The notes beneath the pieces were generated by a model. The model saw nothing but the letters and a program-made list of their open reading frames with translations, searched no databases and had not been told where the DNA came from. 64,000 bases of DNA. Source: Plumapathes pennacea (Eukaryota; Cnidaria; Anthozoa; Antipatharia; Myriopathidae). The position numbers and the translations under genes are program-made. Below, piece after piece: positions 4,618 through 64,000 of the stretch (the first letter of the stretch is position 1; each line of letters starts with the position of its first letter). The stretch lies in contig OZ038462.1 in assembly GCA_964036295.1 (NCBI GenBank), forward strand, positions 31,768,855 to 31,832,854, in the 5' to 3' direction.

Positions 4618-5051
4618 GTCATCTGCCCGGGGGGGGGGGGGGGGAAAGGGGTACTCAATAGGAATTTTAGGGGGGTTCCGCTGACTCTATAAAACCCTGA
4701 CCCTATTCAAGACACAAAAATGGAAATTTTGCTACCCTGTCTAAGACAAAGTGCTCTAATTTGATACCCTGTTCTAGACTAAGTTTAGATAAGTTAGCCT
4801 GCGTTGCACGCGTTTCCACTGGAACACACAAAGAAATAGCGCGAAAATGGTGAGAGCAAAAATGTGGTTGAGGGGGGAGGGGAAGAGGAGAAAATCTTCG
4901 GAAAATAACCCTGTTTAAGACACAAAAATGTAACATTTGATACCCTGTTTAAGACAGAAGACCCTGAAAATGATACCCTATCGGGTGGAACATCCCTATA
5001 TAGGAAATATATGGGAGTACCCCCCCCCCCCCCCCCTCCCGGGGTCATCTG
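4618..5051. mobile_element. hAT-like MITE with G-run/C-run ends and 8-bp target duplication
   Basis: The element (4626-5043) has inverted ends CCCGGGGGG... and ...CCCCTCCCGGG and is flanked by the identical octamer GTCATCTG at 4618-4625 and 5044-5051. Eight-base duplications are typical of hAT elements. The interior repeats short motifs like ACCCTGTTTAAGACA several times. It encodes nothing and ends 18 bp from the donor hexamer of the WSC-like exon. Confidence 0.75.
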
Positions 5052-5074
5052 TCGATGTCTAAGCACTGACTTAC

Positions 5075-5338
5075 TAAAAAGATAAACGTTGTTTCTCCAG
5101 CTACCCCCGAGACCGTTTTTGCACTGGTTGTCATATGCTTTACCGTACACTTTGTACGTTTCGTGAGCTCGTCGGCCGGTAAAACACTGTCCGCCATATT
5201 GTACTCCAAACGCGCGGTTTCCTTCACTGACAGCGATTGCAGCACATTCATCGATAGCACTGGGTCCACTGAAAGTCCTTCCACTGTAAGGAATAGCCCT
5301 TTCACGCTTGTCGACGAAACATCCAACCAAGTGATACG
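5075..5338 (-). CDS. Exon 5: WSC-like four-cysteine domain
   Basis: This 264-nt phase 1-1 exon has acceptor TTTCTTCCAG and donor GTAAGT. It encodes YHLVGCFVDKRERAIPYSG, an IDECAAIAVSEG helix, GVQYGGQCFTG, and a close at CKNGLGGSWRNNVYLF. The order GCF-D...RAIP, EC, GGQC, C-NG-GG-W-N-VY is a recurring cnidarian module related to WSC domains. The exact family assignment is my inference. Confidence 0.7.
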
Positions 5339-8300
5339 CTGGAAGAAATGAAGTGTCACCTAGCAAGCAGTAAGGGGTTGTGCAATGCAATTTTAGCCGT
5401 AAGAATTTATACACCCAAACAACTCAAGACGCGTGAAACTATAACTGTTTCGTAATGCTCTGAATAAAACGCATCACACCTCGAGTACTCCCAACTGAAT
5501 TTAAGGTATAATAACCTAGATACCATAAATGAAAACATTCGTTCTTCAACCTACCGGTAGAACAGACCTCCACTGGACAACGAATTGAACTAGTAATGGG
5601 CTTCTTTAGTGAATCGGCGAATTGTTCACTTTAACTTTCATAGTTGGCACGCATTACGGCCAAATGGTCAGATAATACTTGCAATTGCTTGTTAAATCAT
5701 TTGTAGGCAGAGACCGTAAATTGAGTGTTTTTGGTTACCTGTGCACTTGAATCCGTCTCCAGCGAACCCCGGCTGGCACGTACATTTATAAGAACCCGGA
5801 ATGTTTATGCAGTTAGCAGACGAGTCACATGGGTGACTGTCGCACTTACCGACGTCTGAAAACAGAGAGAGAGAGAACTTGGCCCTTGAAACCTTGCTCG
5901 ATTGAAACCTGATTAAACTATAAATTATCTTTACCACACTTGTATGCTTGCTTCAGGGTTGCCTCACAAGGTTGAGAGGATCTACATTTTAAGTTTGGTC
6001 AAAATAGCAGCAAAGAAAACAGTAAAGCCTGGTCCTCACTAGTGCATAAGCATAAGCACAAGCATAAGCATAAGAATATGAGAGCGACAGTGGCGACATA
6101 ACCATAAGCATAAGGATCGAACACGTCCGTTCCTTAAAGGCTGGTTCACACGAGTAAAGCAAGCACAAGCGCAAACGCAAACGCAAGCGCAAGCGACCGG
6201 TTCACCCGATAAAAATTGTAAAGCAAGTGCAAACGCAAGCGCAAGAGAATGGAATAGTTTTCATTCTCTTGCGCTTGCGTTTGCGCTTGCTTTACTGTGT
6301 GAACCAGCCTTAAAGCCTGGTCCTCACTAGCGCATAAAGCATAAGCATAAGCATAAGAGAGCGACAGTGGCGACATAAGCATAAGCATAAGGAACGAACA
6401 TGTTTGATCCTTATGCTTATGCTTATGTCGCCACTGTCGCTCTCTTATTCTTATGCTTATCCTTATGCACTAGTAAGGACAAGGCTTAAGCCTTGTCCTC
6501 ACTAGCGCATAAGCATAAGCATAAGCATAAGCACAAGCATAAGAATAAGAATAAAAGAGAGTTTCTAACCCCAATGATTAATCTAGCCTGCGCTTCATTT
6601 ATCTGTTTTTCTTCTTCTAAAGTGCACTTCTTCTATCAGGCTTTCTTAATTTCCAGTCGGCTTGTTGTAATTTAGAGTTATTATCACCGCGGGTTCACGG
6701 TTCTTTAACAAGCGTATGTTAAAGTTGAAAAACCCGTGGCAGCTGGGAGCGACTTTAAAGCCTTGTCCTCACTAGCGCATAAGCATAAGCATAAGCATAA
6801 GCATAAGAATAAGAATAAGAGAGCGACAGTGGCGACATAAGCATAAGCATAAGCATAAGCATAAGGAACGAACATGTTTGATCCTTATGCTTATGCTTAT
6901 GTCGCCACTGTCGCTCTCTTATTCTTATGCTCATGCTTATGCGCTAGTGAGGACAAGGCTTAACTTGTGAAAATGATGGTATCGTTTGATTACGTTTGCT
7001 TTGCTTCCCTTAGTTTTGACCAGAAATAAAATAAGAAAAAAAAAAAAAAGAAAAGAAAAGAAAAAACCGTACACAACTGGAAGAAGAATGCGAAAGTGAA
7101 CATAATTGCACAATCAAAGCAGCGTTGTCGCTGTAAGGTAGGCTATCTTTTTAATTGACAGTTTGTCAGCTTTTACTTTTTAATAACAGAACAGAAACAG
7201 AATTTTTTAATTTACAGAGTGCGCATCCGTTTCCGCAGGCCTCCACCTTGGCCGAGCCTCGTATTCGAAAGTCTTGTTCAGAACGCTCCATTCATTAGGC
7301 GCCAGAGGGTGAATATTATAGAACTTTAGTGTGGCGCTTAAAATGGTAGCCTCCTAAAAACACTGCTGCAATCATTTAGAATTCTTCACTTCACAACACT
7401 CATACACTTGCTTCTCAAAGGTTGAGCGACTCTTTTTACGCACAACGGATTTTGACAGTTTGACTTCGACTCTTATTTCTAATTAGAGGCCACGATTAAT
7501 CCAGCCTTCGCTTCAATACTTATCTGTTTTCTTTTACTAACTGAATTCGTTTCTTCTATCAGGCTTTCGAGTATTCGTGCTCTGTAACAACTATAAAATT
7601 GAATGTAACACGAGACATGTTTATAATATTATTGCGGTTTTGTTCACAGTGTGTTCAGTCCATTTGTAACTGGAAACTCAATGCTCAGGACTATATTTCG
7701 GTGTATTTTTCATTTCTAGTATACAATGACCATTGCGAAAGAAAGGCTACATGATCGAATGGAAGAAGCATTTCAACAGGCAATGTACGATAAGCAAAAG
7801 CATTTTATGAGGCAACAGATGTCATGTACAGTGCAAAGCATAAATCGCCATTGTTTTACGGCTAAAGCTCATCGATCGTAGCTTTGGTTTCCGTTTTCGG
7901 CCTATTATCTTCCCAGAAGTATTAGCGGCGACAAATATATTTGCAATCCCGCAGCGGTATCCATCAAACGGCTATTCTCAAACCTCGATTATAATGTTTC
8001 TAAATTGCAACAGATCGACCGGCAATTCATGAGTACAATGATATGTTGCTGGCGAAAATTAAGCAAAGCAAAAAGCACATACAATCAAATGATAGAAATA
8101 TTTCGACAAGTTGAAGTCGCTCCGGGCTGTCACGGGTCTTTCAACTTTGATTTACGCTTCTCAGACAACCAAGAATTTACCAAAAGCTCTATGGTAAATG
8201 GTTCTGAAATGCAACAGTTTGCCTAGCAATTCATAAGTGCAATAATAATCAAAACAACTCTGTAAATTCCGTGCCTTTCAAGTTCATCGATCTCTTGAAA

Positions 8301-20400: not shown

Positions 20401-22230
20401 TCAACATCCTTGAGATCTATTTTTCCAGTTTCAACACGATCTGCATAACTCTGTGAAATGTCCAGCGCACTTGCTGTAGTCTTTGCAGTCGGAGGCGGTT
20501 TATACAGACAGGAAAGAAGTGCTGACGAACCCAGCGATTCAATTTCACAGTGAACTCCAAGGCCCAAGCTACGAATAGTGGTTGCTAGGTTTTTCAGAGT
20601 GTTATCGTTTCCAGAGAGCTTTTGCTTTGGCAAATGTTCCTTTCCATGCGTTTGCTGATAGCGATGCTCGAACTTTCTTAATAACTTCTGCATGTCTTTC
20701 ATTTGTCGGCACAAGCTTTTTATTTGTCAAAGAACTGTACTCTGAATGAAAGTAAAAATAAATTGTTAAATCAAAAAAGGCTGCTTTTGAAACTCCCGCA
20801 AAGTAGACCAATTTCTCAAGGTTGCGCGCGGTTCACGGGCTAAAACTTTTAAATTCAACATTCAGCTTTCTTTCACGGCAGATTGTGTTCATCCTCGGTG
20901 CAAATGCTTCATGCTGCGCTTTTATTTGAGTTAGGATGACTATCTTGAGTTTTAAAGTCGTTTTATACAACAGTCACGCATGAATGCTCGCTAAACGATA
21001 TCATCTCGAAAGTTGTTGCTTGTGTCAAGCTTGGATGCGCGCGCAACCTTGAGAACCTGGTCTATTAATCACAGCAGTTGCAACACACGTACCTTCATTA
21101 CTTTGACTGGCTTTGCAGACATTCCTTTTTCGTTTTGATACGACTGTTAATTCATCAACTGAACCTTGAGTCTTTCTCTTTAGAAACCTTTGAGTTTTTC
21201 ACGGCCTCACCATTTACCAACAGATGTTTCAGAGCAAGCGGGGTCCTGGGCCTGGCTCGAGACAAAAATAGCTCCTGCGCTAAGAATAAATTTCAAATAA
21301 TTATCATGGGTCACGGGGATATGTTCTATTCTCTTACCTCATACTATCTTGTCGTAAAAGGTCCCTTCTTTGCAGGACAAATCAGATTACAGTTCACAAA
21401 GTTTGTCTAACCAAAGGGGAAGAAGAGAAGCGATTGTTAACTTTTGCCAACACAGTGGCATTCCAAGCCAAACACCCAGATCTCATTTGAAGAACTTAAT
21501 AGTAAACGAAAAGTACAAGACTCTGTTCTGTTATGTACCTAAAGTGGCGTGCAGCAACTGGAAGCGCATTTTTCTGGTCTTGGATGGGAAGTTTAACAGA
21601 ACGGAAGATATTTCAAGAACTATGGCTCACGAACCAGGAAGATTAAGGTTTCTTGACTCATACTCCGATGCTGAAATAAATGAACGGTTGCGTACTTACA
21701 AGAAGGTTGTATTTGTTCGCGAGCCGCTGGAACGTTTACTGTCAGCTTACAGGAATAAAATAGAGTACGACTTTAACGGCAAATTCCACCGACTCTATGG
21801 ACAGTACATTGTAAAGAAGTACCGCGGCAGCAGCTTTACATCGAAACCACTCAACAAAGATCGAGCAACCTTTGTGGAATTTGTGAAATACTTAGTGGAC
21901 TTGGATGCAAATGCGAAACTGGAGGTTCACTGGGAAAGAATGCACAAATTATGCTTCCCTTGCGAAATAAATTATGACTTCATTGGGAAATACGAGAGCC
22001 TTGCTCATGACGCCGATGAGGTTCTTCGCGTGATAGGAGCCAGTCATGCTGTCAGATTTCCCAACATCGGAAAAGCTCCGAGTGGAAAAGAAACAGAGGG
22101 ACTCATGGAGAGATACTTCTCACAGATTACCACCGAACAATTGAGAAAACTTTGGCAGATCTATGATAATGATTATGAACTCTTTAGCTACTCTAAGCCA
22201 ACTTATCTGGAAAAAGTTACGAAGCAGTAA
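17362..22230 (+). CDS. Carbohydrate sulfotransferase, Sulfotransfer_2 / HNK-1 (CHST8-14) family
   Basis: This is a complete three-exon gene (17362-17476, 17555-17595, 21376-22230), 336 aa, with matching phases (1, 0). The product is a type II Golgi membrane enzyme that moves sulfate from PAPS to a sugar hydroxyl of a glycan; the acceptor (chondroitin/dermatan, HNK-1 or GalNAc) cannot be told from sequence. Visible parts are an N-terminal basic stretch and membrane anchor (about residues 8-25), the 5'-phosphosulfate loop VPKVACSNWKR (106-116), the 3'-phosphate site FVREPLERLLSAYRN (165-179), and the family block CFPCEINYDFIGKYESL. Length is a little below vertebrate CHST11-14. A potential N-glycosylation site is at Asn126. 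An AATAAA lies near 22664. Confidence 0.9.
17555..17595 (+). CDS. Sulfotransferase exon 2: short stem exon
   Basis: This 41-nt exon lies between acceptor GGCATTTCAG and donor GTAGGT. It encodes GDENGKEEKSVVIN, an acidic and polar stem segment, and links phase 1 to phase 0 exactly as exons 1 and 3 need. Confidence 0.7.
19403..19745. mobile_element. Foldback element in the sulfotransferase intron
   Basis: Arms of about 90 bp (aattaataaatttccactgg pairing with its complement at 19580-19600) surround the hairpin centre gaggcgcttcgccgagtg. The right end keeps gaccaatcagagagcgagaaa, similar to the end of the family at 15030. Confidence 0.7.
20142..20702 (-). CDS. Unrecognised 186-residue open reading frame inside the sulfotransferase intron
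   Basis: The longest antisense frame in the intron starts at ATG (20702) with MKDMQKLLRKFEHRYQQTHG and ends at a TAA. The first 40 residues are basic and probably helical; the middle is Ser/Lys-rich and of ordinary protein-like composition. No domain is recognised. It could be a single-exon host gene, a retrocopy fragment or part of a transposon; an inverted-repeat element lies just beyond its 5' side. It may also be a chance frame. Confidence 0.3.
   Translation of the reverse strand: MKDMQKLLRKFEHRYQQTHGKEHLPKQKLSGNDNTLKNLATTIRSLGLGVHCEIESLGSSALLSCLYKPPPTAKTTASALDISQSYADRVETGKIDLKDVEKLPQLVGKISDSSSLRICPRHTRDPKYRNLQAKLGFLSPIICFLKDGRGLSFVIINVRCGTYQRIAAPSNPTSLITKLQNFLPAT
20805..21066. mobile_element. 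Short inverted-repeat element
   Basis: The left end gaccaatttctcaaggttgc and right end gcaaccttgagaacctggtc are inverted copies with few mismatches, followed inwards by CG-alternating cgcgcg on both sides. The roughly 260-bp length and lack of coding fit a MITE. Confidence 0.6.
21376..22230 (+). CDS. Sulfotransferase exon 3: catalytic domain
   Basis: The acceptor is CTTCTTTGCAG. A single open exon of 284 codons plus TAA holds the whole catalytic domain, including both PAPS-binding motifs and the C-terminal DNDYELFSY block. No frameshift or missing motif is seen. Confidence 0.92.
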   Translation, partial: DKSDYSSQSLSNQRGRREAIVNFCQHSGIPSQTPRSHLKNLIVNEKYKTLFCYVPKVACSNWKRIFLVLDGKFNRTEDISRTMAHEPGRLRFLDSYSDAEINERLRTYKKVVFVREPLERLLSAYRNKIEYDFNGKFHRLYGQYIVKKYRGSSFTSKPLNKDRATFVEFVKYLVDLDANAKLEVHWERMHKLCFPCEINYDFIGKYESLAHDADEVLRVIGASHAVRFPNIGKAPSGKETEGLMERYFSQITTEQLRKLWQIYDNDYELFSYSKPTYLEKVTKQ

Positions 22231-27887: not shown

Positions 27888-29289
27888 TAAAACTAAAAAG
27901 CGCTACCTGAACGCGGTCGGTTCGTAGGCATAGATGACAGCCACGTGCTATACTCTCCTTTTTATACCCCTACGTACTACCCATAATACTCCGGCCTGAG
28001 ACCCAGGCCACGTTGTATCTCGAGCCGCCAAAATATTTATTTCAGCCTTATTCGCAGGCTCATTCGACAGAAATAACATTTTTCTTTTGGGAAACAAAAC
28101 GTTCGAGCGTTTTGGTCAATATTGCTCAAATTTTCGTGAGCTGTAGGCAACATATTCTTCTCCAATACCGTGCCAGAGATTTTTGATTTTTTGTTTCGTT
28201 ATTTTTTTATTAAATAGTTTGTACAAAAAACGGGTTTTGAAACGCTCCCTCCACTTTAAAAGAGAATAAAATCCTTAAAACAAAACGGATCATTCGCTGA
28301 CACGGTATTTTAGTCAACCTCATTGAGTATCTGAAAGAAGTTGTTTTAGCATTTTAAAATAAAACCGACAGAAATTTTGTTTCCCGTTTCCTTTTTCAAA
28401 TTAACCTCAATCGCAATTCATCTTTGATGTGTCTGAAAACAATAACACCAGATCTGTAATCTGCCGTCAAAGACCTTTACAATGATATATAATACGTGTA
28501 TGTACGTTAAATTGTAACGCTACAATGATATTTTCAAGAATGGAGAGCGCAAACCTTTATCGGGACCTTTAGTTCCCTGTTAGTCATAGCCAATCAAGAA
28601 AATAGATGTGACCATACATTGGCCTGTGTTTTATACATATACTGGATTTACTAACGTTTTAAAATCTCGTTTTTCAGTCATCGTCGCGAACTGCTTCCTT
28701 TTTTCACGCGTAAAAGTGATATTTCACCTGTCATAGCAAATCAAGCGATACTTTCTCTCGCTTCCCCAAGCTATCACTGAACGACTCTCGCCTTTGGAGA
28801 CTTCAGAAACTAAATTTATTGCTGAGCTATAGAAGAAAACATAAATACGCGAGAAAGCCTAAACGAAACGTAAAGCCACATTACTCGCAAATCAATGGAA
28901 GAATCGGAGAAACCCGAGGAACACACACAACAACAAACTCAATGGTCATCTCTACGATTCCAACTTGAGTTCGGAAGAAACGTCCATTGGCTGTCGTGTC
29001 TTCATGGACTTATTGTAAGCACATTGCTGGAACAGCAGGAACAATTATTGGATTGGACCTGAACGCCCCCAACACGTAAAGTAGGGAGACATTCCGATCT
29101 CGTTTTCCTTTTGAAAATCTAACAGTTACTTGCGAAACGTGTTAATAAAAAATTAAAACATCTCTAGACACCTACAATTAGTTATTCGCTTGTCCACTTG
29201 AGCCTGTTGAAAGCAGTTTCATTTAACTTGTTTATAGAAATAAATCTAACAACATATCGTTAAAAACAAATGTGCGTGTTTTGTTTCAG
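27888..29289. other. Intergenic, AT-rich, no supported gene
   Basis: No clear repeats or domains. A short frame from ATG 28896 (MEESEKPEEHTQQQTQWSSL) ends near a GTAAGC donor and could be an unplaced first exon; no partner exon is obvious. Confidence 0.3.
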
Positions 29290-29816
29290 GTCCCTCGTGT
29301 GATACACCTCCCCCTGGTAATGTGATTCCAAAGCCGTCCAACTGTACTGAATACTACCAGTGTGTCGATGGGGAACCTTTGGAGCAGGCTTGCCAAGGGG
29401 GACTCGTTTTCAACCCGTCCATAAGCACCTGCGACTGGCCTGATAATTATCAATGTAAGCAATTGAACATGAGTATACGTAGGCATAAATGCATGATAAG
29501 AAAAGGGCAACGTGTGGAAAACTTAGTAAAAATAAGGACGCTTTTTCATCATATAATCAAGCAGCCCTCCTGGAGTGAGAGGAAGTTAAAGGGTGACTCT
29601 GACCGCAAAACGTTACTCTGAAAAAAATGCTTTACTGCAAATTGTATGTATCGGCCTTCTTTGACTGAGATGATACATTCTTTTTAAGGCCCAGTTACTT
29701 GCACCGGGAAGGACGACGGGATCTACGAGATTGAGTGTGATTCCTCCACGTGTTACCTTTGCTGCGATGAGATCATGACACAGTTCCCATGCACAGACGG
29801 GGAGATGACCTGTTAA
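29290..29816 (+). CDS. Chitin-binding peritrophin-A (CBM14/ChtBD2) protein, C-terminal part
   Basis: Two exons (29290-29454 and 29689-29816) join in phase 1. The first encodes a full six-cysteine peritrophin-A domain: C-x14-C-x5-C-x9-C-x12-C-x7-C, with the aromatic motif NCTEYYQC and FNPSISTCDW. The last cysteine codon is split by the intron. The second encodes CTGKDDGIYEIECDSSTCYL and stops at TAA after DGEMTC, so domain 2 is cut short compared with the family. The role is chitin binding in the extracellular space. The 5' exons were not found, so it may be the tail of a chitinase paralogue or a separate chitin-binding protein. The last exon and the DNA downstream have a decayed duplicate at 51640-52080. 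Confidence 0.75.
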
Positions 29817-46103: not shown

Positions 46104-49100
46104 TCCCCGAACGAAGTGAGGGAAATACTCACGACACTAATGCAGTAATATTATACCGCCTACTTGGGGACTCCAAGCCTGTCGCCATCTCGAAATTTAA
46201 CGTTCGTCTGTCTGTCAGTCTGTCTGGCGTACGACTTTAGGCGCGGTTACCCCGCTAACCAATAACAAAGGCCGGATCGATCACGTGTGCCCTGTTGTTT
46301 TACTCGGATTAACAGAGAAATTAGACTTGAACGAAGCATTTAGATTTGAACGAAGCAACAATATATCGTAGCTACGTTCACGAAAATGGAAAACTTAACT
46401 GAAAAACTTGAAGCACAACAGTCTCGCGAAGCTCGTCTTCAAACGAGAAGGGAACAGGCACGAGCAAGGCGAAATCGTGAAACGAGCGAACAACGCCAAA
46501 TTCGTCTCGAGAAAAGGCGACAATCCTGTTATGATCGACAGCATCATAAAAAGAATCGTGCCGAAGAAACGACTCCGCAAAGAAAACAGCGCATGAATGC
46601 CGATCGAAAACGACATGAACAGAAGCGGAAAACGCAGACAACTCCGCAAAGAGAATCCAATCGCCAGCGAGTAGCTTCTCGACGTGGCAATGAATCGTCT
46701 GAACGGAGTACCCGCAGGCTTCAAGCTCAAAATGAAGCCAACACTCGACGCCGACAACAACGTGCTGCAGTTATCGAAGAACGTCGCAGCCAAAAACAGC
46801 AATATTTGCATAACCGTGGGTGGGCAAATTCAGACATTCCTCCATTCCACGAACAAGAATGGGTGCGGGAAGAACTCACTGCCTTTCACAGCTTTGAGGA
46901 AAATCTTCGACAGTTACGCTGCAAGGAATGCAGAGAAACATGGCCGATCACCAACCAAAGTGTGCCCGAACTGAACTATATCTGCACTAGGTGCAAACGC
47001 GACAAAAAGACCTCGTGTCGATTGTTCTCAGCTGAAAACGACATGGATCCTGGGACAGTCCCTGCAGAATTACAGGACCTCACCGAAGTAGAGGAAATGC
47101 TGATCGCCAAAGCTTTACCAATCATGTGTGTTTACCGAAAGCACGGCGGCCAGCGTGGGTACAGAGGTCATAAGTCCTCAATTTGCCACAGGATGTTCAG
47201 GGATTTCTCAGCACTCTTCCAGCCAATGTGAGTGATCTGCCCGTTCTTATCATCAGGAAGCAAGAGGCAGGTAAGAATTGAAAACTATTCTGTATGGCTT
47301 TTATAGTTGTATTTATATTTTTGACCTCGCTGTGTATTGATGGCCAAATTTGCAATAATTACGCATTAATTGCAATTCGGCCATTCTTTGTCATTGTTTC
47401 TTTTCAATGAAGAACAGTTAAACAAAGAATGCATGGTGAAATTTTGTTTAATTTGAATTCCTACTTAATCAGACCACTGATTGTGTTTTGTTATTATTTG
47501 CTACATTTTTAGACACAAGGATCGAAGAGAACACAATACTGTATACATGTGTTTGTACTTTGATTCACCATTGCAAAAGCTGTAGTTTGTGTTTTTTAGA
47601 ATATTTGCCAATTTTTACTACAGTATCAGTGCCTAATTAATTTACAGTGATTTATGATCTATGCAGTGAAGTTTCTTTAGCTGTCCATATGATGATGTGC
47701 ATTTGTTTTTATGCCATGTACACTTGATATTACGCTCGGGGATAACCAAAAACATTTATGGCAGTGTTTTGAGGAAAGAATTGGCCTCTATTATCAGGAC
47801 AACAAGTATTTATTTACAGTGCGCCAGTTCCTTTGCAGCATCCTTCCAAGATTTATGTCAATTGTGGATGAATAGTACAGGTTAGCTATGTGCATTGTAT
47901 TGTGTACATCATGTGAATTATCTTATTAATCCACTTAAGACTTGGTGCCTTTTCTGATTTTTGTAGGAGCAAAGAAAGAGGTTCCTTGGCTAAACTTACA
48001 CTTCGGTCCAAGTGGAAGTTCAATTTCTATGTTGTTTATAGGTAAGTACTGTATAATAAATTTGCAACAATATGTACCGAAGACAAAAACCTGAACATGT
48101 GTTTTCATTTCCAAAGATCATGCTAAAGGAAATGTTAAAGTGAATGAATCATGCTGAGAAGCCAACTCCTGTGCTGTTAAGGGATCCTCATATACCAAGT
48201 CACTGACATCATGAAAAGTGTAAAGTGTGAAAGGAGCCAAAAATGAACTCAATGCTGACGTGTACAACCCGATTGTCTGGTCCAACAAGAATGCCAAAGG
48301 AAAATGTTCTCAAAAACATTGGCCTGTATATTCTGTATATCCTGTTGAGTACGCCACAAATAAATTTTCAGTATATCTGTATGTTTTCTTAAAATTTGGA
48401 ATGGTACTGTACTGTGCTCAAGTGGATGACATGCTCAGAGCCAAGTATTTTTTTCTGTGTACCTTTTTGACACAAGGTTTTGTTATTTACTTATTTGTTA
48501 GAGGGTTGTTTGCTTTTTATGAAGGAAAACTTCAGTACAGTTATGTAATATAAGTGGCAATAACATGCGAGTATATAAGGCCAGCACCAAGGTAGACAGT
48601 AACCAATGTTGTAACAACAAGTTTAAACCCTTTCACACCTAAGAGTGATCAAATTCAATTTTCTCCTTCAGTTGAAAGTGTACTGTATTGTACAGTATAG
48701 AGAATATATAGCTTTTTGTACCTTTTGGTTAAGTGAATGCTGACTAAACTGTCACTTCTCAATGCATAATTTATTTTATATTATTTGTATTTTGAAAAAG
48801 CTGAGAGATTCTGCATTTAGGCTTGGGAGTGAAAGGGTTGTTTACCTGTATTAAGTTCATGATAGTTATTATTCCCTTATCCTCCAAGGGATTGTGCTCC
48901 TGCATGCTTTTGGTTGGAGAGTACGTTCCTACTTTTTCCTACAAGGTTTTGGGTTTTTGTACTAGGCAAGAGCACTTGATGAAGCTTATATAACACAAAT
49001 GTATGATAAAAAGGGCACACATTGATTAGTGTGCTGTATGATGATGATGACAGTAAGATTAAGAATAAAAAAATTGATGCTGATATATATGTTGTTTTCT

Positions 49101-55524: not shown

Positions 55525-55564
55525 ATGGGAAACTCCCTTAATTCAGAAAACGATGCTTTATCAG
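55525..55564 (+). CDS. Repeat-protein exon 1: start codon and MGNS N-terminus
   Basis: ATG follows a pyrimidine-rich stretch ending in TTTTAAAAG. It codes for 13 residues plus one base before donor GTGACG. The start was chosen by phase match with exon 2; an alternative upstream start cannot be excluded. Confidence 0.55.
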
Positions 55565-58500
55565 GTGACGCATTGCAGTACATGTAGTTTCTGAATTATT
55601 GATTTGCACTTTGCTCATGTTTTCATCATGACTGACTGATCGCGCGGTTCAACTCAAAGTTAGTTGAATTTGGCGTTTAATTTGATTAGTTTATTTAACT
55701 CGTTAGCTGCTTGATTGGCAGATTTCTACTGACTCCACAGCTTTTAGGAGAGCTTCTTGCTTTTATTTGTTGAATTTGTATCTGCATTTCTTTGATTATC
55801 TGCAAAATATTCCAGTATTCTTCTTTCAGTGCATACAGGTTTTCATCTGCAGGAACAATCCTTTAACAAATTATAACTAATTAAACTAACTAGTATTTTT
55901 TGATTGGAATATTTTTCAGATGCAAGTGAAATAAATCCAGATACACATTCTTCTATCAGTGGATACAGGTATTGTCTGCAGGCACATTTCTTTAATGATG
56001 TTTTGTTTTGGCCCTTCTTGATAACAGCATTTTATAGTGCTGACTAGGTTACCCTGGCTGGTAAAATAATATTATTAAAAAAATAATAAATATTATTATT
56101 ATTAACAAATTATAACTAGTTTCCTAGTTAAGATTGAGGTTCCGTTTCTGTTAATCAGGATGACCCTTGTATTGAGAGTTAAGTACAATTGCAACCACAT
56201 CTCTAGCAAATGTACCACCCAAAGTACAATACTTGTAACATAATTATGCATTTTAAAAGTATAACTTATTGTACTAGTAAGTTACAATTAATTCTTTGCC
56301 CAAAATCTAAATCATGAAAGGGCTGGGACATATTAAAAAGGTTAGGATATTGTCAACAGAGTTTTATATGCATTATAGGCCAGTGCATTAGCTCTTTTAA
56401 ATTTTGCATGAGGATATCCAGCAAACTTCTAAAACCCATGGATAGATCAAAGTGTATTTTTTTCCAGACAAGTAGTTTTCCAACCTGTCTTCCAAAGTTT
56501 GTTGAGCTGTAGGGACGTTTCCTGAGGGTTCTGCACAGTTTTGTCATCAGTACCAGGGTGCTGACTTCAACAATGAAAGGAGCATGTGTTGTCTCATACA
56601 TGTACATCCTTGTCAAAATCCTGTCCCAGAGAAAAAAGCTTTTCCCCTATTCCTCATAACATATTGACACTTCAGTATTACCAGGGTTTGAAATTAGCGT
56701 AATTGTACCCAGCATCTCTCACAGTTAAGTCATGTTTTGGTTGTCCCATCCAAACTCTTGGTATTTTTACCCACTTGTGCTAAAAATTTACATATTCATT
56801 AGTTTCCTATTGGAACTGCAACCACTGGAAACTGTTTGATTGCCCCAGCAGGATTTTGCTTGTTCAGGACAACTGGACAATCATAAATCTCAAACCCTGT
56901 GTACTGTTACCCATTGAATTTGAATGGCAAATTACATAAATACTGTTAGGTATACAGAAGGATTTTAATTTATAAATAAAAAGAGGTTAGTACACGGTAA
57001 GGAGTGCAATACGGTGGAGTATTTTTACGAATTGGTTTTATTTTTTTAACCCTTCTTCAGGTGAAAAAAATAAAACTGACGAGTAAAAATACAGCCGTAT
57101 TGCACGACTTTTCGTGTAATAAATTGTTTATTATACGACAAACGAAGCAGGACAAACGTTATCACCATGCGCAAAAAGGAACAAAAATTGATGTGTTTTT
57201 AATAAACCAGTTTATCTGGTTCCTGACGAGTGCAATACGCTCACATCTTTGCACTCTTCAGCCTGTATTTGCACTCGAAAATGTGAAGTCGTGTAATAAA
57301 ATTGTGGAATGTTTATTTTTGTTATATAGACTGTGAAGGTACTGTGAGGCTCTTGTCCAGATTTACCAGCATTTAAATAAAATTCTATAATTTAATATTA
57401 ATTACAGGTAATGGTATGTACAATCTATATTTATTTATTAGTTTGATGCTTGATGCCTTTATTGAATATGCACATGGTCATACATGTAATATCAGAAAAA
57501 CTGTGCTTCTATGTGTATACCCCTGTAAATGACAACCACATCTTGCTAAAACACAAGAAAACCAATGGACCCTCAAGAAAAGTATTGCTTTGTTTTTGAT
57601 GCAAATTTTATAAATAGTATGTACATCTGAATAATAGTTTGTTATTTGTGTGCATTTTCAGCAGGATAGTGTATGAAAAAATAACTGATTTTCTGGAGTA
57701 TGAAGGCTTTACACAGGTTCCGGTAAGTATCATCAGATCATCATCAAGTAGTTTTCATTTTCAAAAAGTTAGCAGTTATCTAATAGCTTACACAAATGTA
57801 TTGAGCCAACAATCATGTGTTTCTATTCACAAGTGTGCTTGCATGTTATTCTGATTAACTCTAAAAACAATCATCGATACCTCCAGAGGAGTCAGTGGTA
57901 AATAACTCTGGAACTAATTAATTAGTTCCTACCACACAGTTCTTGATAAGAAAAACATGTTTGGTCAGTTCATGCTTATTTTGATTTCCTGATTGGTTAA
58001 CAAATTATTGCTCATGACTAATACTTTGCAGGGGGGAGGGGGCTATATTAGCTTATACCTGTAAATGTTAGCTGTATTATAGTCACCATACAAATGACAA
58101 ACACAGTCATACAGTTTTTGCATCATTTGAAAGTCTTATTTCTGATTATGGCAATAATTTTTAAGTGTTTCTTCACACTACCTACCAGAAATAACAGCTA
58201 AATTATTTTGACAACCACTACAACTATTACAAACACATCAAGACATTTCCCTGAAAAACAGCATGCTTAGATCAATTACATATACTACAGTAGATCCCGC
58301 TATCTCAAACAGAATCCGACAAGAACTTAATAGAACTTTCCTTTGGTAAAACCATGTTATCTTTGATTTTCCGCTATCTGGAACTATTTCTGGCTTCCCT
58401 TGAGAGTTCAAGATGTGGGGTTCTGCTGTACTATATATAAGGGACTGTTCATTTTTTATGAGGTGGGGGGGGGGGGGGGCTGGTGGGATTTGGGGGGGCA

Positions 58501-61500
58501 TGCAAAAAAAATGGCCTCAAAGGAGGGGCAGGCAAAAAAAAAGTGGAAGTAAAGGGGGGGTGCGCAAAAACTTTCACAACTCATGAGGTATTACTATGAA
58601 AACAATACATATAACACAATATGTGGACAAGTACAACCGTATGGAAAGTTTACTAATATAGAGGCTCCATAGCCTTAAAAAATGCAGGAAAACAGTGTTT
58701 CAGGGAATCTAGATTTCAATTTTTCTGGGGGATCATACCCCTAGACTCCCCCAGCAGCTCACGCCTCTGGCGCTCAAGCCCCGGGCTCAAGCCTCCCTGA
58801 TCTGCCCCAGCTACTTTATTCCAAGTAAAGCTTGATGCTTGACATAAAGCCGGGTTTGCTGCTTTAATGTGAAGTGAGGCTCCAAAGGGGTTACATATTT
58901 TTCTTAGCAGGCAAGGGGGGATGCATAATTTTGTATTGTCTTAGGGGGGATATACAAATTAATTTAATGAATGCAGCCTAAAAAGCGTCCTTTTGAGAAC
59001 AGTCGTTTAATTCATAAGGGAAGAGATACAGGGAACACCTTATTTTAGTCCTGAATTCGAGTCAATCTGCAGTTGAGCTCTAAATAACGCTCAGTAAAGA
59101 TCACGCAAAAAAAATGGTGGGCTGAGGGGGGGGGGGGGGGGGCATGTGAAAAAAATGGCAGGCTTGAGGGGGGGGGGAGGGGCATGCTGTTTCCCAGTGG
59201 GACTTCCCCAAATCCTACTAGCCCCCCTATCTCACAAAAAATGAACATTCCCTGATCAAATTTTCCTTTGGGAGCAGGAGTTCAAAATCACATCAAAATA
59301 ATTTAAAATAATCATTAGAAGCAACACAAGGAAATCTATATCTTGCCTAACATAAATATCCACCATATTTATTGTGCAGATTATTTTACTTAGGATAGGA
59401 ATCATTTAAGATCGCCATGGTACCTGAAATAGGATGTGCTCTAGTCCAAATTTATTTGGATTTCCCAGGGTATTCTGTTGTTCTCCTGATTTTTCCGTAA
59501 GACAAGCACTACCATGTTTTAGCAAATGAACATTATTATTTGAATTCCCTGTCCATCTGCCTATTTATTTCTTGATCATTACTATTACTATTATTACTAT
59601 TATTGATTTAACGGGTGCTCTGTAGAAATACATGGGAGCTAACAATATTTAGAAGAAATTTTAGACGGTAAATGTTTGATGTATCAACTCTTACAGAGTG
59701 ATAACCAAGAGGAGATCTATGACAGAGATGAGCCCGAAGAAATGTGCACCATGCTTTTTGGAGCTGATATCGGTGGAGATCGGAACTCCATCCGCCGCCG
59801 CCGCGGCAGTTCATCTGCAGCTTGCCACGTGGTACAAGAACAGCCAAGGTCTACTGTACCTAGGGAAGTTTTTCAGCGAAGTCCGTCTCCCAGTCGGTCT
59901 CTACAGTACAACACCTTGTCGCAATCCACAAGATCGCCTGTTATTCCTTCTCATTCAACCCCACCAACTTGCGTGCCACCAATGACATGCGCTGGGGAAG
60001 AAGGCTCCTGGTTTGAGGCGGGTGTCTTCAACAACGGACTGCCACAGCGGATGATTGGTCAAGATCCACGTCAAGCTGTGACCTGCCTTAAAACAAATAT
60101 TCAGTCAGATGCATCAGCATCTGAAAAGATTCCAAGTGCCACCACCGGGCTCATCAGAAGCCCTGTAGCACAAAAGGAAGAAAATTATTCGGACCCCGAT
60201 GAAAGAAAGGCCACCACGCCCGAAGGAACGAAAGTGAATGGCGAGCTAAAACTGAAACGCGGGCCCAGTGGAAAATCAATTGACCAAAAAACCACCCGGG
60301 TTGCAAGATCACCTGTAAGTCCTCCTTATCAGTATTCAGTTTTGTCAAAGGACATGCCACGAGTGGGATATGCGCTGAAAGGCTCCTGGTCCGTTACTGG
60401 TGTCTCCCACAATGGACTGCCAAAGCGGATGTCTGATCAGGACACACGTCAAGCTGTGACCTGTACTGAAACACAGTTTCAGTCAAGCGTACCTCCATTT
60501 CAAAAGATTCCAAGTGCCACCACCGGGCTAATGAGAAGTCCAGTACCAAAGAACAAATATAACTCCTTGAGATCTGACGACAGAAAGTCGACCACGCCTG
60601 AAGACACGAGAGGGTATACCGAACGGAAAGTGAAAGGCGCTTTTAACGGAAACTTGGATGGCCCCACGTCTGATTCCACGTGTGATCGAGATGCACGTCA
60701 AGCTGTGATCTGCACTGCAAGAGAGATTGACTCTGGCGCATGCCCACCTAAAGAGATTCCAAGTGCTACCAACTGGCTAATGAAAAGCCCTGTTTCAAAG
60801 GAGGGAGAAAATTCCTTGAGATCTGAAGCCAGAAAGTCTACCACGCCTGAAGACACGAGAGAGAATACCGAACAGAAAGTGAAAGGCGGTTTTAACGGAA
60901 ACTTGGATGACCCCACGTCTGATCGAGATGCACGTCAAGCTGTGATCTGCGCTGCAAAAGAGAATGATTCTGGCGCATGCCCACCTAAAGAGATTCCAAG
61001 TGCTACCAACTGGCTAATGAAAAGCCCTGTTTCAAAGCAGAAAGATAATTCCTTGAGATCTGAAGCCAGAAAGTCTACCACGCCTGAAGACACGAGAGAG
61101 AATACCGAGCAAAAAGTGAAAGGCGGTTTTAACGGAAACTTGGATGACCCCACGTCTGATTCCACGTGTGATCGAGATGCACGTCAAGCTGTGATCTGCA
61201 CTGCAAGAGAGATTGACTCTGGCGCATGCCCACCTAAAGAGATTCCAAGTGCTACCAACTGGCTAATGAAAAGCCCTGTTTCAAAAGAGGGAGATAATTC
61301 CTTGAGATCTGAAGCCAGAAAGTCTACCACGCCTGAAGACACGAGAGAGAATACCGAGCAGAAAGTGAAAGGCGGTTTTAACGGAAACTTGGATGACCCC
61401 ACGTCTGATTCCACGTGTGATCGAGATGCACGTCAAGCTGTGATCTGCACTGCAAGAGAGATTGACTCTGGCGCATGCCCACCTAAAGAGATTCCAAGTG

Positions 61501-64000
61501 CTACCAACTGGCTAATGAAAAGCCCTGTTTCAAAGGAGGGAGATAATTCCTTGAGATCTGAAGCCAGAAAGTCTACCACGCCTGAAGACACGAGAGAGAA
61601 TACCGAAGAAAAAGTGAAAGGCGGTTTTAACGGAAACTTGGATGACCCCACGTCTGATTCCACGTGTGATCGAGATGCACGTCAAGCTGTGATCTCCACT
61701 GCAAGAGACACTGACTCTGGCGCATGCCCACCTAAAGAGATTCCAAGTGCTACCAACTGGCTAATGAAAAGCCCTGTTTCAAAGGAGGGAGAAAATTCCT
61801 TGAGATCTGAAGCCAGAAAGTCTACCACACCTGAAGACACGAGAGAGAATACCGAGCAGAAGATGAAAGGCGGTTTTAACGGAAACTTGGATGACCCCAC
61901 GTCTGATTCCACGTGTGATCGAGATGCACATCAAGCTGTGATCTGCACTGCAAGAGAGATTGACTCTGGCGCATGCCCACCTAAAGAGATTCCAAGTGCT
62001 ACCAACTGGCTAATGAAAAGCTCTGTTTCAAAGGAGGGAGATAATTCCTTGAGATCTGAAGCCAGAAAGTCTACCACGCCTGAAGACACGAGAGAGAATA
62101 CCGAGAAGAAAGTGAAAGGCGGTTTTAACGGAAACTTGGATGACCCCACGTCTAATTCCACGTGTGATCGAGATGCACGTCAAGCTGTGATCTGCACTGC
62201 AAGAGAGATTGACTCTGGCGCATGCCCACCTAAAGAGATTCCAAGTGCTACCAACTGGCTAATGAAAAGCCCTGTTTCAAAGCAGAAAGATAATTCCTTG
62301 AGATCTGAAGCCAGAAAGTCTGCCACGCCTGAAGACACGAGAGAGAATACCGAGCAGAAAGTGAAAGGCGGTTTTAACGGAATTTTGGATGACCCCACGT
62401 CTGATTCCACTTGTGATCGAGATGCACGTCAAGCTGTGATCTGCACTGCAAGAGAGATTGACTCTGGCGCATGCCCACCTGAAGAGATTCCAAGTGCTAC
62501 CAACTGGTTAATGAAAAGCCCTGTTTCAAAGCAGAAAGATAATTCCTTGAGATTTGAAGCCAGAAAGTCTACCACGCCTGAAGACACGAGAGAGAATACC
62601 GAACAAAAAGTGAAAGGCGGTTTTAACGGAAACTTGGATGACCCCACGTCTGATTCCACGTGTGATCGAGATGCACGTCAAGCTGTGATCTGCACTGCAA
62701 GAGAGATTGACTCTGGCGCATGCCCACCTAAAGAGATTCCAAGTGCTACCAACTGGCTAATGAAAAGCCCTGTTTCAAAGGAGGGAGATAATTCCTTGAG
62801 ATCTGAAGCCAGAAAGTCTACCACGCCTGAAGACACGAGAGAGAATACCGAAGAAAAAGTGAAAGGCGGTTTTAACGGAAACTTGGATGACCCCACGTCT
62901 GATTCCACGTGTGATCGAGATGCACGTCAAGCTGTGATCTGCACTGCAAGAGAGATTGACTCTGGCGCATGCCCACCTAAAGAGATTCCAAGTGCTACCA
63001 ACTGGCTAATGAAAAGCCCTGTTTCAAAGCAGAAAGATAATTCCTTGAGATCTGAAGCCAGAAAGTCTGCCACGCCTGAAGACACGAGAGAGAATACCGA
63101 GCAGAAAGTGAAAGGCGGTTTTAACGGAAACTTGGATGACCCCACGTCTAATTCCACGTGTGATCGAGATGCACGTCAAGCTGTGATCTGCACTGCAAGA
63201 GAGACTGACTCTGGCGCATGCCCACCTAAAGAGATTCCAAGTGCTACCAACTGGCTAATGAAAAGCCCTGTTTCAAAGGAGGGAGATAATTCCTTGAGAT
63301 CTGAAGCCAGAATGTCTACCACGCCTGAAGACACGAGAGAGAATACCGAAGAAAAAGTGAAAGGCGGTTTTAACGGAAACTTGGATGACCCCACGTCTGA
63401 TTCCACGTGTGATCGAGATGCACGTCAAGCTGTGATCTGCACTGCAAGAGAGATTGACTCTGGCGCATGCCCACCTAAAGAGATTCCAAGTGCTACCAAC
63501 TGGCTAATGAAAAGCTCCGTTTCAAAGGAGAAAGATAATTCCTTGAGATCTGAAGCCAGAAAGTCTGCCACGCCTGAAGACACGAGAGAGAATACCGAGC
63601 AGAAAGTGAAAGGCGGTTTTAACGGAAACTTGGATGACCCCACGTCTAATTCCACGTGTGATCGAGATGCACGTCAAGCTGTGATCTGCACTGCAAGAGA
63701 GACTGACTCTGGCGCATGCCCACCTAAAGAGATTCCAAGTGCTACCAACTGGCTAATGAAAAGCCCTGTTTCAAAGGAGGGAGATAATTCCTTGAGATCT
63801 GAAGCCAGAATGTCTACCACGCCTGAAGACACGAGAGAGAATACCGAACAAAAAGTGAAAGGCGGTTTTAACGGAAACTTGGATGACCCCACGTCTGATT
63901 CCACGTGTGATCGAGATGCACGTCAAGCTGTGATCTGCGCTGCAAGAGAGATTGACTCTGGCGCATGCCCACCTAAAGAGATTCCAAGTGCTACCAACTG
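55525..64000 (+). CDS. Unrecognised protein with long 83-residue tandem repeats, partial
   Basis: Four exons join in phase: 55525-55564, 55920-55968, 57665-57722 and 59697 onward. The last stays open to the window edge, so the product has at least 1,483 residues. The N-terminus is MGNSLNSENDALSG (Gly2 suggests possible but not canonical myristoylation). A short segment (IVYEKITDFLEYEGFTQVP) and an acidic then Arg/Ser-rich region follow, with RRRRGSSS and SPSPSRS. Two divergent repeats (from about 60036 and 60414) come next, then the homogeneous array from residue 379. I recognise no family. Low hydrophobicity, high Ser/Thr/Lys/Glu content and many TP/SP sites suggest a mostly disordered, possibly phosphorylated protein. 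Function is unknown. Confidence 0.72.
55920..55968 (+). CDS. Repeat-protein exon 2
   Basis: A 49-nt exon lies between ATTTTTCAG and GTATTG, phase 1 to phase 2, coding DASEINPDTHSSISGY. A look-alike segment without the first half of the exon lies 130 bp upstream (55817-55845). Confidence 0.5.
56000..57664. other. Introns of the repeat-protein gene
   Basis: AT-rich with few repeats. At 57003-57345 segments such as gagtgcaatacg and gtgtaataaa recur in both orientations, suggesting a decayed inverted-repeat element. No separate gene is seen. Confidence 0.35.
57665..57722 (+). CDS. Repeat-protein exon 3
   Basis: The acceptor is TTTTCAGCAG and the donor GTAAGT; phase 2 to phase 0. It codes RIVYEKITDFLEYEGFTQVP, the most globular-looking part of the N-terminus. 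Confidence 0.55.
58440..59253. mobile_element. G-rich inverted-repeat element in the last intron
   Basis: The ends agggactgttcattttttat and aaaaaatgaacattccct are inverted copies. The interior has runs of 14-18 G at 58464-58480 and 59125-59142 plus repeated ggggcatgc-aaaaaaatgg modules. It is non-coding. Confidence 0.7.
59697..64000 (+). CDS. Repeat-protein exon 4: giant open exon with the repeat array
   Basis: The acceptor is CAACTCTTACAG. I translated the exon base by base from 59697 to the start of the array and found no stop; the array consensus also has none in this frame. All length changes between units are multiples of three (one unit lacks 12 nt). Many unit-to-unit differences change residues conservatively (for example KEGD/KQKD, STTPED/SATPED). 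The frame is cut only by the window edge. Confidence 0.82.
60684..64000 (+). repeat. In-frame 249-bp tandem repeat array, 13 full units plus a partial one
   Basis: Units begin GATCGAGATGCACGTCAAGC at 60684, 60921, 61170, 61419, 61668, 61917, 62166, 62415, 62664, 62913, 63162, 63411, 63660 and 63909. The first unit is 237 bp, the rest 249 bp. Each codes 83 residues, starting DRDARQAVICTAREIDSGAC, then PPKEIPSATNWLMKSPVSKE, and ending GNLDDPTSDSTC, with three cysteines per unit. Copies differ at only a few positions, so they are kept alike by recent unequal exchange or gene conversion. Confidence 0.95.

Follow-up and report, generated by a model that had tools for sequence, protein, structure and literature searches.

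We analysed a 64,000-nucleotide stretch of the Plumapathes pennacea genome (hereafter the window; C1:31768855-31832854, forward strand, in a 290-Mb assembly of 24 contigs that was searched as a whole), the last part of which is occupied by a gene with a giant repeat-bearing exon that runs beyond the window edge. Sec16 organises export from the endoplasmic reticulum (ER), and the family link of this gene to Sec16 is well supported by sequence comparison. We consider it rather probable that this is a Sec16 paralogue specific to the lineage, truncated and rebuilt, whose cytosolic product would carry a tail that binds coat protein complex II (COPII) on a long spacer. The initial annotation, made from the letters of the window, had regarded the protein as unrecognised; this stands for its 83-residue repeat unit, which has no convincing match in Pfam, NCBIfam or PDB, but not for the protein as a whole, since the part encoded beyond the window edge is homologous to the C-terminal half of Sec16. 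The predicted gene spans 55525-76682 on the plus strand (coordinates above 64000 carry the window numbering on into contig C1) and comprises 13 exons encoding 3,876 residues, with 12 GT-AG introns of fitting phases. This model was built by eye, with phase, splice signals and, in most of the exons, conservation serving as checks.

The first pointer to this relationship was a resemblance of the motifs GWF..LPDD and RYVDV to Sec16, which was then tested on the genome's own Sec16. An exon-by-exon genome search with the TPR_Sec16 profile (PF12931) had contig C11 as its sole location, with one exon caught there, and the central-domain exons of that locus, joined by hand, matched TPR_Sec16 with E = 8e-43 over profile positions 1-267 of 298; hence we took the C11 gene (5.37-5.40 Mb) as the canonical Sec16. 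Against PDB the central domain of this Sec16 gave a single weak match, 3mzk chain B (E = 0.95). The C-terminal 170 residues of the predicted protein recovered C11:5.376-5.378 Mb as an ordered series of weak exon matches (E = 0.004, 0.03 and 0.19), and alignment of the region encoded by exons 9-13 with the C-terminal region of Sec16 showed 78 of 140 positions to be identical (z = 45, 0 of 1,000 shuffles reaching the score). The last ~29 codons of exon 4, which lie outside the window, are homologous to the Sec16 exon that closes the ACE1 domain; together with exon 5 they are identical to Sec16 at 27 of 54 positions (z = 27, again 0 of 1,000 shuffles). The alignable segments (the end of exon 4, exon 5 and exons 9-12) all occur in the same order as in the canonical Sec16 of this genome. 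The splice phases likewise agree at the end of exon 4 (0) and in exons 5 (0-0), 6 (0-1), 8 (1-0), 9 (0-0), 10 (0-0) and 11 (0-1), and exon 9 measures 90 nucleotides in both genes, the Sec16 exon borders having been chosen by eye and Sec16 exon 12 read at its acceptor only. Both proteins also have a proline run in common, which reads KAPPPPPPT in the window gene and EKAPPPPPPT in Sec16.

Strictly speaking, the window gene is nevertheless no Sec16, since the central domain that defines these proteins was tested for and not found. Sec16 proteins (Sec16A and Sec16B of mammals) are normally recognised by this domain, whereas here only its last ~29 residues align. The TPR_Sec16 profile found no match in exon 4 up to the window end, in the N-terminal, edge and C-terminal pieces or in exon 6, and queries with 309 three-frame stretches taken from the Sec16 locus (C11 below 5395500) revealed no central-domain exon, introns included. 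What these queries matched at E 1e-3, in the window locus and the paralogue loci described below, was tail exons and repeats of transposon-like appearance; thus, as far as found, the window gene retains the tail without the rest of the central domain. The PF12932 profile had no match anywhere, its positive controls remaining likewise unmatched, and the C-terminal region of the predicted protein found nothing in Pfam or PDB. The window gene further differs from Sec16 in its N-terminus, in an additional exon 7 for which no counterpart was seen and in two long tandem arrays, one preceding the ACE1 remnant in exon 4 and the other lying between the remnant and the C-terminal region in exon 6. Among the open-licence PubMed Central papers listed, no title or abstract beginning describes Sec16 paralogues lacking the central domain or bearing such arrays. 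As to the canonical locus itself, its N-terminal frames carry short repeats of their own (129 bp x 2.4 and 108 bp x 3.6); the 43-residue repeat among them bears no relation to the arrays of this gene family. A 148-copy 3-bp tract lies between the tail exons of the locus.

Exon 4 begins at 59697, directly after a splice acceptor at 59696, and its plus-strand frame stays open for 1,434 codons to the end of the window (59697..64000). The annotation's statement that the frame is open for at least this length and is kept through every unit is thus confirmed, Tandem Repeats Finder (TRF) reporting 0% indels. Read past the window edge, the exon meets neither a stop nor a frameshift: it extends in the assembly over 59697-66908 (7,212 nucleotides, 2,404 stop-free codons, phase 0 to 0), with a GT donor directly after 66908 and the first in-frame stop at 66927, i.e. 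in the intron. Openness of the array goes beyond chance, as frame 1 was open in 44 of 5,000 shuffled 249-mers and conserved coding sequence lies on either side of the exon. The frames of the opposite strand that repeat in step had been put down as by-products; they are present, and nothing was found that supports them as genes.

The 5' part of the exon (59697..60500, +) comprises a conserved N-terminal stretch and a first long module. It is followed by the 249-bp (83-residue) tandem array (60505..64000, +, for the part inside the window), for which TRF gives 14.1 copies with 95% matches. Units marked by the motif IPSATNWLM begin at 60756; 14 of them start inside the window, the last being cut at 64000, and the whole exon has 21, spaced by 83 residues in 19 of the 20 intervals and by 79 in the remaining one. 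Each edge adds two diverged modules (edge spacings 126, 83, 127 and 128 residues), which makes 25 modules in all. The 19 units with exact 83-residue spacing are on average 96.8% identical, 18 of them being distinct, while the 5' module is 46-54% identical to the edge modules and 41-45% to the array units. From these identities we read the 83-residue unit as a probable internally shortened copy of the longer module. Unequal exchange is a process that yields arrays with a homogenised centre and diverged edges. Each unit has three cysteines and about 1.8 SP/TP sites on average (38 in 1,739 residues), with two at most.

The exon 4 array falls on the disordered side of the Uversky measure (0.376 vs 0.420), and so does the array of exon 6 (0.391 vs 0.423). 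An AlphaFold2 model of three 83-residue units had a mean pLDDT (predicted local distance difference test score) of 33.2 with no residue at or above 50, the underlying alignment consisting of four near-identical rows, and is weak evidence compatible with disorder. Profile searches with the repeats gave several candidates that we rejected. A search of PDB with the 83-residue unit had no match at E 1. Pfam reported Defensin_1, DB, Bacteroid_pep and Germane on the window frame, with no stretch passing on its own for any of them (best stretches 13, 25, 21 and 74 residues), and we regard these as repeat artefacts; Defensin_1, for instance, surpassed its curated cut-off solely as a sum over copies of a 13-residue stretch. 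FimV_Cterm, the sole NCBIfam match on the unit, lay below its cut-off. On exon 6 the 120.6 bits of DUF3645 were likewise a sum, with a stretch of 11 residues, making it a repeat artefact, and DUF4585 was below its cut-off.

Three small exons of matching phase had been proposed upstream of the array, and here the phases do fit and exons 1 and 3 are kept in three of four paralogues, with exon 2 remaining unrecovered. Exon 1 (55525..55564, +; MGNSLNSENDALS) is backed by its phase and by the pattern MGNSLN.ENDALS, kept in the window gene and three paralogues, none having been found in paralogue C when all four were examined for it. An in-frame TAA forms the second codon before the ATG, as it does in the three paralogues in which exon 1 was found. 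The MGNSLN start, which we take to fit the permissive N-myristoylation pattern, could be myristoylated. Exon 2 (55920..55968, +) is a tentative assignment from splice signals and phase (1 to 2) and was recovered in none of the four paralogues; exon 3 (57665..57722, +; RIVYEKITDFLEYEGFTQVP) is identical at 15 of 19 residues in A1 and D. Exon 4 is followed by exons 5 (67328-67426), 6 (67858-71353), 7 (71677-71817), 8 (72199-72278), 9 (72734-72823), 10 (74378-74434), 11 (75336-75498), 12 (75965-76059) and 13 (76632-76682, stop included), all on the plus strand. Exon 6 is open over 1,165 codons and contains the second array, 34 units at an exact spacing of 20 residues that are 97.6% identical and unrelated to the 83-residue unit. 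Exon 7 seems to duplicate the end of exon 6, the pattern SLKQPTLT.SALSGIPIQ being common to both. G-rich tracts lie on the plus strand of the intron before the repeat exon, at 59108-59186 (a 40-bp tandem repeat) and at about 58465-58520.

A search with the C-terminal 170 residues recovered four paralogues, labelled A1, A2, C and D, on the minus strand of contig C1 (18.228, 18.269, 18.327 and 18.491 Mb); their longest exon matches to the window gene show 68-72% identity. Exons 5, 6 and 8-13, together with the end of exon 4, occur in the window gene and in all four. A1, A2 and D have, in addition, exons 1 and 3 and a 5' part of exon 4 to which that of the window gene is 60, 61 and 60% identical, respectively. 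In A1, A2 and D, exon 4 has a single copy of the long module followed by an array of a 43-residue (129-bp) unit, with TRF copy numbers of 30.4 in A1, 31.4 in D, 5.4 in A2 and 5.8 in C. The 43-residue and 83-residue units are unrelated (z = -1.1, the score lying below the shuffled mean), whereas the 20-residue units of exon 6 are related between the loci (z = 29). Since exon 4 of all four paralogues holds this unrelated array, the array sequence is replaceable, its flanks being kept. Derivation of the 43-residue unit from the 83-residue unit or from the N-terminal repeats of Sec16 was unsupported by alignment against shuffles. From the GDD..GADR pattern to IVME, exon 4 measures 1,586 residues in A1 and 1,630 in D, the whole exon of the window gene measuring 2,404. 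A1 is apparently intact in the exons seen, with stop-to-stop frames of 1,659 and 671 codons for exons 4 and 6. Among the best candidates scored, 37 of 38 matches of the 43-residue query fell in the cluster and all 41 of the 20-residue query in the window gene or the cluster; the remaining match, C1:29924183-29924359, is a stray fragment of two partial 43-residue units whose DNA is ~80-96% identical to cluster units (3.5 kb around it were read). Within C1:18.22-18.52 Mb, C2H2 zinc-finger frames were seen by eye upstream of copy C. In two coral genomes tandemly duplicated genes make up about one third of all genes, according to an excerpt of PMC10236652, whose main text does not mention Sec16.

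Comparison with these paralogues indicates that the tail is under purifying selection: its ratio of non-synonymous to synonymous substitution rates (dN/dS) is 0.26, 0.25, 0.26 and 0.27 against A1, D, A2 and C (198, 198, 198 and 170 codons). Against A1 and D the ratio drops to 0.06-0.07 at the end of exon 4 and to 0.04-0.08 in exon 12 (0.07 and 0.04, respectively, against A1); against A1 it is 0.24 in exon 1, 0.14 in exon 3, 0.61 in the 5' part of exon 4, 0.40 in exon 5 and 0.37 in exon 9, exon 10 being saturated. With all comparable pieces pooled it amounts to 0.53, 0.38, 0.52 and 0.61 against A1, A2, D and C, and within the cluster it ranges over 0.32-0.88. The comparison of synonymous with non-synonymous change between units, suggested in the initial annotation, revealed a bias in the direction of synonymous change that is weak: the 19 units have 23 non-synonymous and 12 synonymous variants at a site ratio of 193.7 to 55.3 (3.5 to 1; one-sided P = 0.07), and the lack of stops among the 35 changes is unsurprising (P = 0.23). 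With its variants weakly biased, the array is weakly constrained in sequence. Selection on repeat number, which had also been raised, is possible; the wholesale difference of the paralogues' repeat unit suggests that any selection acts on length or general character and not on the 83-residue sequence.

By analogy with characterized Sec16 proteins, the product would be cytosolic, and its tail, with the KAPPPPPPT run, GWF..LPDD and RYVDV, would bind Sec23 and possibly Sec12 and Sar1 like the C-terminal region of yeast and human Sec16. Excerpts of the published studies, from which this and all following citations are drawn, report that in human Sec16 the central domain serves localisation to ER exit sites and the C-terminal region (CTR) interacts with Sec12, Sec23 and Sar1 (PMC4980449), that in yeast the CTR binds Sec12 (PMC3275590) and the C-terminus binds Sed4 and Sec23 (PMC10184828), and that the central domain forms dimers and binds Sec13 (PMC7619307). 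Without this domain, neither Sec13 binding nor Sec16-type dimerisation is expected. PPP motifs, as found in Sec31, TANGO1 and Sec16, bind the gelsolin domain of Sec23 (PMC7594496); among the 3,876 residues a PPP run occurs just once, as the KAPPPPPPT of the Sec16-like tail, and this run is kept in all five copies. The same source describes that the disordered region of Sec31 can be replaced by some unrelated disordered regions and suggests a minimum length (PMC7594496). On the reading that we favour, the protein would serve near ER exit sites as a spacer or competitor that binds COPII, and exon 4 would supply a reach of roughly 1,590-2,400 residues with up to two SP/TP sites per 83-residue unit, in which the length and general character of the array, rather than its sequence, would be selected. 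Its roles may include coat recruitment, competition with Sec16 or Sec31, or membrane linking through a myristoylated MGNSLN. Within this range we tentatively put forward, as a suggestion somewhat short of an expectation, that it is a natural Sec16 without the central domain acting as a COPII-binding tether, whose very long spacer was made from any in-frame minisatellite available, with selection for length and loose structure and hardly any on the sequence of the array.

Slightly less likely is that the protein acts as a competitor or buffer, its tail sequestering Sec23, Sec12 or Sar1 and so damping COPII export, with the arrays mattering little. The human CTR alone, when overexpressed, is cytoplasmic and disrupts ER-to-Golgi transport, an effect that coexpression of Sec23 rescues for one isoform (excerpt of PMC4980449), and retention of a constrained tail with no central domain found would suit such a role; however, a pure decoy would presumably have no need for what is seen here, the filling of one and the same exon by unrelated arrays in two lineages.

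Several observations weigh against a functional tethered Sec16 paralogue. On the side of kinship, the ACE1 remnant taken alone is a weak match in the genome search (E = 0.0048, C11:5380441-5380560), exons 6 and 8 were paired with Sec16 by position and phase alone, Sec16 has an intron before the remnant where the window gene has none, and additional Sec16 exon sequence lies between the matches of exons 11 and 12. On the side of function, localisation is uncertain because the human protein is placed at exit sites by its central domain, and the yeast Sec16 region after the central domain failed to replace the disordered region of Sec31 (excerpt of PMC7594496), so that disordered regions are not freely interchangeable. 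The two array types may differ in function, as PPP runs are absent from the 83-residue array and occur in the 43-residue arrays (five in A1, four in D). The Uversky values speak against uniform disorder, the tail of the window gene (0.447 vs 0.418) and the 43-residue arrays of A1 (0.453 vs 0.416) and D (0.449 vs 0.414) lying slightly on the ordered side, and the AlphaFold2 run on the 83-residue units had just four near-identical rows. Finally, the dN/dS against A1 reaches 0.95 in the non-repeat half of exon 6 and 0.71 in exon 11, and the family may be decaying, since three of its five members look damaged or partial: A2 has exon 4 split over two frames, C is without the 5' part of exon 4 and has exon 6 split over two frames, and D shifts frame near the start of exon 4. 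Assembly error in the repeats is a possible source of these breaks.

From the last group of observations one could argue that the genes are a Sec16-derived pseudogene family, with the arrays as functionless minisatellites that happen to grow in frame, and the weak synonymous bias and unsurprising lack of stops in the array would agree with this. We find this doubtful: exons 4 and 6 are open over 2,404 and 1,165 codons in the window gene and have the long frames noted above in A1, the tail and exon 12 have the low dN/dS ratios given above, and the start codon, the upstream stop and exon 1 are conserved. It is improbable that exon 4 is usually spliced out, the main product joining exon 3 to exon 5; its phases (0 to 0) do allow an in-frame skip, but the frame is kept throughout, its Sec16-like end has a dN/dS of 0.06-0.07, and three paralogues match its 5' part at 60-61% identity. 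The structural or surface protein of the initial annotation, whether secreted or exposed, is very improbable, for although cysteine-bearing near-identical repeats in a giant exon would fit it, a Kyte-Doolittle scan of the predicted protein for a signal peptide or transmembrane segment reached a mean of 1.14 over 19 residues at most and so revealed no long hydrophobic stretch, an in-frame stop stands shortly before the ATG, the MGNSLN start is hydrophilic, and the C-terminal part is that of a cytosolic coat organiser.

Elsewhere in the window, a single plus-strand frame at 21358-22230 has a full-length Sulfotransfer_2 match (E = 3e-59), and a frame at 29250-29621 (+) has a chitin-binding peritrophin-A (CBM_14) domain (E = 1.5e-15). 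A minus-strand frame at 4794-5423 with a WSC-like domain scores just below the curated cut-off (26.7 vs 27.8 bits). The 293-residue frame at 46350-47231 (+) matches DUF6570 (E = 8e-14) and is presumably part of a Helitron-type element. In the same assembly, the first 6 kb of contig C24 (17,711 bp), read by eye on the minus strand with table 4, are taken by us to hold COX1 with an endonuclease-like frame, ND4L, COX2, ND4, ND6, ATP8, ATP6 and the start of ND5. Such a mitochondrial contig fits a hexacoral cnidarian; ARAGORN with the bacterial code gave no tRNA on it. The GFP profile (PF01353) matched nowhere, its controls included.

The gene family amounts to a natural experiment on the role of the Sec16 tail on its own in a living animal, and on whether long spacers are selected for length or for sequence; were the tether reading true, nature would have tested here whether disordered regions can function in coat assembly independently of their sequence. 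With coding minisatellite genes such as those of mucins and silks, the window gene has in common a homogenised in-frame repeat, a giant exon and diverged edge units, and it differs from them by its Sec16-like tail and by having no sign of a secretion signal. From the disordered proline-rich regions of Sec31 and TANGO1/cTAGE5, which bind Sec23 through PPP motifs (excerpt of PMC7594496), the window protein differs in having a single PPP run, located in its tail.
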